From: Synechococcus sp. Nb3U1
GTDB lineage: Bacteria; Cyanobacteriota; Cyanobacteriia; Thermostichales; Thermostichaceae
NCBI RefSeq assembly: GCF_021533835.1
Contig: NZ_JAKFYQ010000001.1
Coordinates: 840,079-904,078 of the forward strand
Direction of reading: 5' to 3'
Length of the DNA stretch: 64,000 nt
The position numbers were made by a program, and so were the translations under genes. Numbering within the stretch: position 1 is the first letter of the stretch; each line of letters opens with the position of its first letter. The notes below the pieces were generated by a model. That model was not told where the DNA came from and searched no databases. It saw only the letters and a list, made by a program, of their open reading frames with translations. Of this stretch, positions 61,316-64,000 are shown in pieces.

Positions 61316-61968
61316 CTCAGCTCTACCTCACATACAGCTAGGTTGCTTATCCGGTCAGTGCTACAGGGATCCCTGCTACCCCGGAATGGGAATAGCCTAA
61401 CCTCAGATCTCATCCTGAACCAAGAGGAACAAACAGGTTTTGCACAAGCCAGAGGATTCTTGTGGGAGGCATCAGGCCTGTACAAGAGATGCTATCTCTC
61501 ATCCTCGACAACCCTCTGTAGATTCAGCTCTTGCGCGGTTTTCCTACAACAATGCTTGTGTCCTTGAAAGACTTTACCTGAAAGATTGTAGAAAAATACT
61601 CTGGTGACATAGCCTATGCAAGGTGACGAGCGTTGCCCTATGGGCCGCTACAGGCGAACGCGCTAGCGTGCCCTTGGCCTCAAGAGCTGTATTAGCTGTA
61701 TTATGTGTGTTCAAAATAGGTGTATCCAAAATAGCCATCTCGATTCATGGGTGAGATTCATGAATGAGATTAACTCTCAAGGATAGTTCTGTATAGATCT
61801 CTACATAGATCATGTATAGATCGAAATCAAATAGAACTTTAAAATCCTCAAGTTGGGAATTTATTGTACGTGACGGTAGCTTGACAGGAATTAGGCTGCA
61901 TAGATACCATAATTTCATGTCAGCCAGCCTAATTCTGCGGGTCACACTGGGTTAAGGGCCATTCAGTC
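61316..61968. other. Long intergenic region upstream of the c-di-AMP riboswitch
   Basis: 653 bases with no supported gene. At 61627-61676 there is a cyanobacterial spacer-repeat-like stretch (GGCGAACGCGCTAGCGTGCCC). The stretch 61740-61930 is AT-rich and includes GATTCATGAATGAGATT and repeated TATAGATC/ATAGATCAT units; it probably holds the promoter of the transporter operon. A 66-codon minus-strand frame at 61745-61945 has no Shine-Dalgarno or known domain and is not called. Confidence 0.5.
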
Positions 61969-62096
61969 TGCCGACTCACCGATCTAAATGCAGAAGCGGG
62001 GGAACCATTTCCAGGGGCTTACTCTGAGCATACGCCAGGGAGAGTATCTCTTAGCTCTAGCCCGTCAGCTAACTCCGTCGGCATTAAGAGGTGGCT
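61969..62096 (+). ncRNA. Candidate c-di-AMP (ydaO/yuaA) riboswitch
   Basis: P1 pairs TGCCGAC (61969-61975) with GTCGGCA (62077-62083), seven perfect base pairs. Inside are the conserved GCGGGGGAACC at 61996-62006, an AGGGGCTTACTC segment in place of the usual GGGG-UAAUC, CCAGGGAGAGTAT, and CCCGTCAGCTAACTCCGTCG before the 3' strand of P1. ATTAAGAGG follows P1, as in the known pseudoknot part. These blocks come in the order of the ydaO motif (Rfam RF00379). The class usually turns expression off when c-di-AMP binds. The next gene, an ABC permease, starts 142 bases on. Confidence 0.85.
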
Positions 62097-62238
62097 AAAG
62101 AATGAGGGATCCGTCTGTGAGCGGAGTTTCGTTCGTTAGAGACCTACGGGGCTGAACATCAGTGGTGACAGAGGTTTTTGGGCTTTTGGCCAGAGTCCTC
62201 TGCTTTCTCCTATTACTTCACTCCCCACGGATGCCCCT

Positions 62239-63069
62239 ATGCAGAATAGATTTGATGATACGGCTGCCTGGGTGCGGCGACTGTGGGCCTGGGTCTTTCA
62301 AGAGCAAATACTTTGGCCTTCGGCCGGATTCGGGATCCTCTTGGCCTTGTGGTGGGGGATAGCCCTCTGGCGCAGCGACTTGATGCCCACCCCACCTCAG
62401 GCGTTCGTGGCCAATTTGGATTACATTTTGCATCCCTTTTATCGCCGGGGCCCCGGGGACTTGGGGATAGGCTGGTTGCTTTTGGCCAGCCTAAGGCGAG
62501 TGCTGACAGGTTTTTTGTTGGGTGCTGTTGTGGCCATTCCGATGGGATTTTGGCTGGGAATGTCACGTTCAGCATGGCTGATGTTCAACCCGATCGTGCA
62601 GATATTGAAGCCGGTTTCTCCCCTGGCTTGGTTGCCGATTGCTCTTTCTATCTTTAATTTGGCCAATCCTTCCGCCATCTTCGTAATTTTTATCACTTCC
62701 CTCTGGCCTACGATCATCAATACTGCCGTCGGCGTGGCCAGTGTGCCGCAAGATTATCTGGATGTGGCACAGGTATTGGAAATGCCTCGTTGGCGGCAAA
62801 TCCTCAAGGTTATTTGGCCGGCAGCCTTGCCCTACATCTTTACAGGCTTGCGGATTAGCTTGGGGATCGCCTGGTTGGTGATTGTGGCGGTGGAAATGCT
62901 CACGGGCGGCATTGGTATTGGCTTTTTCGTCTGGGATGAGTGGAACCGTCTCAATCTCAGCGCTGTATTTTTATCGGTGCTGGTGATTGGAGTGACGGGG
63001 TTGGTGTTGGACTACCTATTGGGCCAGATCCAAGTGTGGGCGACCCATCGACCGGCAGCCCAAGGCTAA
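62239..63069 (+). CDS. ABC transporter permease, NrtB/CmpB/SsuC family
   Basis: 276 residues with six or seven helices of the BPD_transp_1 family for nitrate, bicarbonate, sulfonate or taurine. The coupling-helix EAA motif is in VPQDYLDVAQVLEMPRWRQILKVIWPAALPY; 'GFFVWDEWNRLNLSAVFLSVLVIGV' near the end is typical of NrtB and CmpB. It sits downstream of the c-di-AMP riboswitch and upstream of a matching binding-protein gene. Order permease first, then binding protein, is unlike nrtABCD or cmpABCD. The substrate is open. Confidence 0.9.
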   Translation: MQNRFDDTAAWVRRLWAWVFQEQILWPSAGFGILLALWWGIALWRSDLMPTPPQAFVANLDYILHPFYRRGPGDLGIGWLLLASLRRVLTGFLLGAVVAIPMGFWLGMSRSAWLMFNPIVQILKPVSPLAWLPIALSIFNLANPSAIFVIFITSLWPTIINTAVGVASVPQDYLDVAQVLEMPRWRQILKVIWPAALPYIFTGLRISLGIAWLVIVAVEMLTGGIGIGFFVWDEWNRLNLSAVFLSVLVIGVTGLVLDYLLGQIQVWATHRPAAQG

Positions 63070-63248
63070 CCGAGAGGGATCCCGCGGTTCGGCTCATCAT
63101 CCTGGCAATGACTAACCTGGCAATGACTAACTAGGAGCAGGGCCTAATATCCCCACATTGAGGTAGGAAGTTGCTCTGGTGCTGGTCTTTGATTTGATTT
63201 TCTTTGATTTTCTGACTTGATCTATCGATACGATTGCGAGGTTTTTTC

Positions 63249-64000
63249 ATGCTCTCAAGACCTCATTCCCGGCGCAGCTTATTGCGAGGGTTGGGCGCCG
63301 CCGGGGCTGGGATCCTAACAGGCAGGATCTATCCAACCGTACAAGCAGCCGACATCGAGCCAGTGGTGGATCCGAGTTCTCTGGAGAAGCCCAATTTGAC
63401 GGTGGGCTATGTGCCGGTCAACGATTGTGCCCCGTTTGCAGTGGCCTATGAGAAGGGCTTCTTTCGGAAATATGGGCTGAATGTCCGCCTCAATCGCGAA
63501 TCTAGTTGGGCCAACTCTCGGGATGGGGTAATCTTCGGGCGGTTGGATGCTTCGCCTGTGGTGGCCGGGGCTGTAACCAATGCCCGCTTGGGGGCGGAAG
63601 GAGCGCGGCGAGCGCCTATGTGTGCGGCCATGACCATTCACCGCCACGGCAATGCCATGACCATGAACCCTGCCATGTGGGAGGCTGGCTTGCGGCCTTG
63701 GTATGAGTATGCCGGGAATCTAGAAGCCTTTGGGCGAGACTTTCGTGGCTACTTTCAAACTTTGCCCAGCCAGCGGCGACTGTGGGCCACGGTGCTCAGT
63801 TCGGCCATTTACGAATACTTCATCCGGTATTTGGCCGCTGATGCCGGGATCAATCCGATCGCAGGGTTTCGTATCATCATCATTCCGCCGCCCCAGATGG
63901 TGACCAACATTCGTATTGGCGCCATGCAAGCCTACATGGTGGCGGAGCCATGGAATACCCGCGCCATCACGGGCAATGAGGGGGTAGGGTTCACCTTCGC
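63249..64000 (+). CDS. Tat-exported NrtA/CmpA/SsuA-like substrate-binding protein, 5' part
   Basis: Starts at ATG 63249 and runs off the window; 250 residues are seen. A twin-arginine signal (HSRRSLLRGLGAAGAGIL) comes first. The binding fold begins NLTVGYVPVNDCAPFAVAYEKGFF and continues with FRKYGLNVRLNRESSWANSRD, the conserved 'GRLDASPVVAGAVTNARLGA' and 'GAMQAYMVAEPWNTRAI'. This is the NrtA/CmpA type. It should deliver anion to the permease upstream. Nitrate, bicarbonate and sulfonate cannot be told apart by eye. The ATPase genes would lie beyond 64000. Confidence 0.9.
   Translation, partial: MLSRPHSRRSLLRGLGAAGAGILTGRIYPTVQAADIEPVVDPSSLEKPNLTVGYVPVNDCAPFAVAYEKGFFRKYGLNVRLNRESSWANSRDGVIFGRLDASPVVAGAVTNARLGAEGARRAPMCAAMTIHRHGNAMTMNPAMWEAGLRPWYEYAGNLEAFGRDFRGYFQTLPSQRRLWATVLSSAIYEYFIRYLAADAGINPIAGFRIIIIPPPQMVTNIRIGAMQAYMVAEPWNTRAITGNEGVGFTF

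Follow-up and report, generated by a model that had tools for sequence, protein, structure and literature searches.

A c-di-AMP riboswitch leads the operon of a distinct NrtBAD-like importer in Synechococcus sp. Nb3U1 and other cyanobacteria

In Synechococcus sp. Nb3U1 the operon of an ABC importer of the NrtBAD type is led by an RNA of the c-di-AMP riboswitch class, and the same pairing of RNA and importer recurs in other cyanobacteria. The reading that we favour, and hold with fair confidence, is that a true c-di-AMP riboswitch leads the operon of a distinct clade of NrtBAD-like importers, which would take up a small anion for ion and turgor balance. The RNA is an additional member of an already known riboswitch class, and the osmotic role of that class is likewise known. 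Positions given below are those of the window, that is, of the whole 64-kb stretch of DNA that was analysed; genes lying beyond its end are located on L032.

The riboswitch and its operon

The element upstream of the permease gene is a true member of the c-di-AMP riboswitch class RF00379. The match extends over the full model (1-134), with a score of 60 bits against the RF00379 gathering score of 38 bits. The features of the locus are as follows.

61959..62098, + strand: c-di-AMP riboswitch aptamer (RF00379, ydaO/yuaA), 60 bits, E 2e-11; core nearly invariant in 3 species of the genus
61969..61975, + strand: P1 helix, 5' strand, TGCCGAC, read in the sequence
62077..62083, + strand: P1 helix, 3' strand, GTCGGCA, read in the sequence
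62083..62238, + strand: leader from the aptamer to the first gene, the presumed expression platform, starting with a conserved purine-rich AAGAGG
62239..63069, + strand: ABC permease, NrtB-like, 276 aa; TIGR01183 237.6 bits; PF00528
~63234..64000, + strand, running past the window end (L032:5313-6698): substrate-binding protein, NMT1_2 (PF13379), 461 aa
L032:6794-7351, just outside the window: Usp gene
L032:7366-8256, outside the window: NtrCD-type ATPase; TIGR01184 353.2 bits

This is the sole Rfam match in the window and the one RF00379 match in the genome, which also encodes a DAC-domain cyclase in single copy. The first-pass annotation had assigned the element to the ydaO/yuaA motif on the strength of P1 and three further motifs, and had proposed the RF00379 search that now bears the assignment out. 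All of these motifs are located in the sequence: in addition to the two strands of P1, GCGGGGGAACC is found at 61996-62006, CAGCTAACTCCGTCGGCA at 62066-62083 (containing GTCGGCA at 62077-62083) and ATTAAGAGG at 62083-62091. The aptamer core of Nb3U1, GGGGGAACC and CCCGUCAGCUAAC, is intact, and the conserved RF00379 core (GGGGAACC and CCCGUCAGCUAAC) is present. What the Nb3U1 element has in common with its class is the full-length match above cut-off, the core motifs and a leader position before a transporter operon. The difference lies in the target, which is usually named as a potassium or osmolyte system and here is an NrtBAD-like importer; a further contrast is that the leader of the relatives looks translational.

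The permease gene starts 140 bases after the end of the Rfam match and is followed by genes for the binding protein, Usp and the ATPase, the last two outside the window. Permease and ATPase both exceed the NCBIfam cut-offs for nitrate transport (209 for TIGR01183, 'nitrate ABC transporter permease', and 291.8 for TIGR01184), and the NrtB/CmpB-like permease and binding protein that had been read downstream of the RNA are in place. The binding protein has a twin-arginine-like N-terminus. Among solved structures it comes closest in sequence to the C-terminal domains of CmpC/NrtC (E ~1e-63), with NrtA and CmpA next.

Of three species compared within the genus, Nb3U1 alone has a Usp gene inserted between binding protein and ATPase. 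The absence of Usp between A and D in one of the others (G388) implies that the insertion is variable. Usp genes elsewhere carry a c-di-AMP riboswitch of their own.

Conservation of the pair

RF00379 is present in 93 of 386 sampled cyanobacterial genomes, and orthologues of the binding protein (taken as at least 63% identical) are present in 54. For 49 of these 54 orthologues an RF00379 RNA lies on the same strand and no more than 2.5 kb upstream, counting one (G233) that scores 29.5 bits, i.e. under the cut-off. Outside the 49, G070 has a partial aptamer at the start of a contig, and in G039 and G008 the locus is split by contig ends, with a riboswitch plus a length-matched permease carried on a different contig; in G048 and G064 (2/54) a riboswitch upstream of the orthologue is seemingly absent. 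A second collection of 80 organism-named loci, which overlaps in species with the 386-genome sample and was searched with a loose motif pattern, has the riboswitch upstream in 76 (72 found by motif, four more by Rfam). Two of the remaining four loci are cut off by sequence ends and two (L224 and L268) have no detectable riboswitch.

Within the genus, of which six genomes were compared, riboswitch and operon occur together in three (G000, G332 and G388) and neither occurs in the other three. In the three species that have the pair P1 is, like the aptamer core, nearly invariant, and the flanks have diverged. The survey of related genomes that had been proposed as a check on the association speaks for it. 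Judged by these sequence comparisons, the pairing of riboswitch and importer is ancient and conserved across cyanobacteria.

Leader and mode of control

The leader of Nb3U1 differs from that of its relatives, and the model of the expression platform rests on 46 relatives whose leaders are about as long. In these, a hairpin follows the aptamer, starting within the purine-rich stretch that is conserved downstream of P1, and a second helix can form between the 3' arm of this hairpin and the Shine-Dalgarno region. With both structures drawn by eye on the alignment and then counted, so that the counts somewhat favour them, the hairpin shows pairing in 88% of cells (no more than 44% when slid) and has 60 two-sided cells as against 25 in shuffles, and the Shine-Dalgarno structure is paired in 83.5% of cells, with mostly one-sided changes and little covariation. 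The two structures are mutually exclusive. RNAalifold run on the raw leader alignment returns only 8 pairs, and the minimum-energy fold of the 302-nt Nb3U1 leader is no better than shuffles (z -0.95).

In a few genomes (G033 and G045) the purine-rich stretch adjoins the start codon, and at four loci (L209, L218, L231 and L233) the leader measures merely ~53 bases. Mutually exclusive hairpin and Shine-Dalgarno helix, purine-rich stretch near the start and short leaders together point to translational control, and the importer is probably regulated at this level.

The purine-rich stretch is also found a few bases before the start of CitMHS/ArsB-type genes at L056 (G135) and L038 (G045), and of the permease gene at L054 and L085; at such loci it may itself serve as the ribosome-binding site. 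Two candidate transcription terminators in the leader are weak and barely exceed shuffles, and neither is convincing. A promoter search yielded two sites where 1.2 are expected, which is not significant alone, and the following candidate was set aside as unconserved in two relatives of the genus.

61881..61910, + strand: sigma-70-like promoter candidate, TTGACA-18-TACCAT, 10/12 matches

Other targets of the riboswitch in cyanobacteria

A survey of the DNA around 113 RF00379 RNAs from cyanobacteria finds three main kinds of first gene, accounting for 92 of them: an NrtB-like permease (39), a CitMHS/ArsB-type transporter of 445 residues (27) and Usp (26). The order is riboswitch-B-A-D, often then Usp and CitMHS/ArsB, sometimes with a second riboswitch. 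At many loci (L242, L246 and L257, for example) paired c-di-AMP riboswitches stand ~4 kb apart, one before B-A-D and one before Usp and CitMHS/ArsB. Further targets, named by eye from their sequence, are a CPA2-like cation antiporter and a P-type cation ATPase (G298/G066, L035 and L036; G105, L111).

Riboswitches for c-di-AMP have been verified in cyanobacteria (reviews: PMC10117731, PMC9896922). The one in Synechocystis regulates slr0753, a gene with a putative role in chloride efflux (PMC10117731), whose discovery is discussed in PMC9896922. This target belongs to a protein family other than that of the importer, and Nb3U1 has only a distant, 26%-identical homologue of it. The CitMHS/ArsB family presumably includes Slr0753, to judge from the first of the two reviews. 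The CitMHS/ArsB-type target, one of the three main ones of this RNA in cyanobacteria, is probably of the Slr0753 type and as such would be a putative chloride exporter. If CitMHS/ArsB does export, it is hard to see how one simple sign of control could suit importer and exporter genes whose leaders are alike. No NrtBAD-like target is named in the papers found; it may already figure in the original target lists.

Substrate of the importer

Permease, ATPase and binding protein are homologous to those of the NrtABCD and CmpABCD importers. The Nb3U1 operon is set apart from these by the order B-A-D without a fused regulatory NrtC/CmpC-type ATPase, by membership in a clade of its own, by changed ligand residues, and by the riboswitch and Usp. 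The regulatory C-terminal domains of CmpC and NrtC are the closest to the binding protein by sequence, yet they are fused to an ATPase, whereas here the protein is separate and exported.

The binding proteins linked to the riboswitch group in a single clade (support 100/100), whose stem measures 1.23 changes per column. Its sister group (87/89) consists of proteins from nirA/nrt clusters of other cyanobacteria; the nearest binding proteins that lack a riboswitch are 38-47% identical and are encoded in gene clusters that also contain nirA and nrt-type genes. The riboswitch-linked permeases also form their own clade (96/93).

In the structure of NrtA the nitrate ligands are Trp102, Gln155, His196 and Lys269. 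Aligned with these, the clade shows Trp, Asn, Tyr and Arg, and the Tyr and Arg, which stand in place of the His196 and Lys269 of a nitrate importer, do not vary among the 15 orthologues aligned. In CmpA the same two positions are occupied by Gln and Glu. As aligned, the site retains a positive charge (Arg for Lys), which is consistent with an anion, but differs from both the nitrate protein and the bicarbonate protein. The fold family and the Arg replacing a nitrate-binding Lys make an inorganic anion a plausible substrate.

Further operons of this superfamily are present in the genome, named here from sequence and context: nirA-nrtABCD-narB (L178), cmpABCD (L179), an ABC operon of the cyanate type with a cyanase-like gene after it (L181) and one of the sulfonate type (L182). 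An NrtC subunit with its regulatory domain is absent from the riboswitch-led operon, which comprises only B, A, Usp and D, and the combination of a CmpC subunit with a CmpA-type ligand site is not found there. The conserved neighbours are Usp and the CitMHS/ArsB-type transporter, not nitrogen or carbon genes; among the named loci no nitrogen gene is a conserved neighbour.

The first-pass annotation had proposed that c-di-AMP controls uptake of an inorganic anion, possibly nitrate or bicarbonate. This is partly supported: control of an ABC importer by c-di-AMP has good support, the riboswitch leading an NrtB/NrtA-like operon and being conserved with it, and an inorganic anion is plausible. Nitrate or bicarbonate as the default substrate is weakened by the separate nrt, cmp and cyanate-type operons, by the placing of the binding protein (in a tree suggested at the time) in a distinct long-branch clade, by the changes of His196 to Tyr and Lys269 to Arg and by conserved neighbours other than nitrogen or carbon genes. 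The importer probably carries something other than nitrate or bicarbonate.

Proteins of the NMT1_2 type bind varied ligands, which leaves some room for an organic cargo (a compatible solute or sulfonate), taken up as by other c-di-AMP-controlled osmolyte transporters. We consider this rather unlikely: the closest relatives are inorganic-anion proteins, and the pocket retains the Trp of NrtA and has Arg for Lys. In its favour, the riboswitch class is linked to osmoprotectant transport, cyanobacteria included (PMC5986932; PMC3766115).

Uptake of nitrate or nitrite, which would tie c-di-AMP to nitrogen supply, is unlikely. It is no worse than disfavoured, given that the nearest relatives without a riboswitch sit in nirA/nrt clusters. 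The family models name the genes at 62239-63069 and L032:7366-8256 nitrate permease and nitrate ATPase, but these labels derive from two subunits that leave specificity unset, and for the permease and ATPase of this clade they are probably misleading. The long stem, the altered nitrate site, the genome's own nirA-nrtABCD-narB cluster and the lack of nitrogen genes as conserved neighbours all count against nitrate.

It is very improbable that the Nb3U1 aptamer has decayed and lost its response to c-di-AMP. The segment after P1 does deviate (GACUC, as against AAUC or AGUC in most relatives), P2 is poorly paired in the Rfam alignment, and 60 bits falls in the lower part of the score range across the phylum. 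However, the same deviation is common to G388, and core and P1 are intact and have been kept among the three species despite the divergence of their flanks.

Least credible is uptake of bicarbonate, with c-di-AMP acting on carbon supply at the RNA level besides SbtB: c-di-AMP affects carbon-concentrating genes in Synechocystis (PMC10117731) and the CmpC domain is the closest solved relative, but that closeness involves a regulatory domain, cmpABCD is separate in the genome, and CmpA has Gln and Glu against the Tyr and Arg of the riboswitch-linked clade.

Proposed mechanism and implications

The favoured reading, of a c-di-AMP riboswitch leading a small-anion importer, is built around what is observed of RNA class, operon, conservation, regulon partners and hairpin covariation; the parts that we infer are the binding of c-di-AMP, control at translation, the direction of the response and the substrate. 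The importer would consist of the permease, a lipoprotein or Tat-type binding protein and the ATPase. Made by the single DAC-domain cyclase, c-di-AMP would bind the aptamer and stabilise P1, altering the fold of the leader and hence how much importer is made. The leader of most relatives can adopt either the covarying hairpin directly after P1 or the helix covering the Shine-Dalgarno sequence. The cargo would most likely be a small anion and less likely another small solute, and the importer would act in ion and turgor balance alongside Usp and the CitMHS/ArsB-type transporter, the remaining two principal targets of this RNA. A more specific version, which we put forward only tentatively, has a c-di-AMP-controlled, ATP-driven importer of an anion, perhaps chloride, in one regulon with Usp and the Slr0753-type anion transporter.

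It is the conserved target, not the RNA class, that is the interesting part. Genes that family models label as nitrate transport are likely misnamed here. Control of potassium by c-di-AMP is well known, but control of the balancing anion is not; the chloride-type reading, if true, would be the anion counterpart to it, and a conserved c-di-AMP-controlled cyanobacterial importer offers a concrete route to test anion control.
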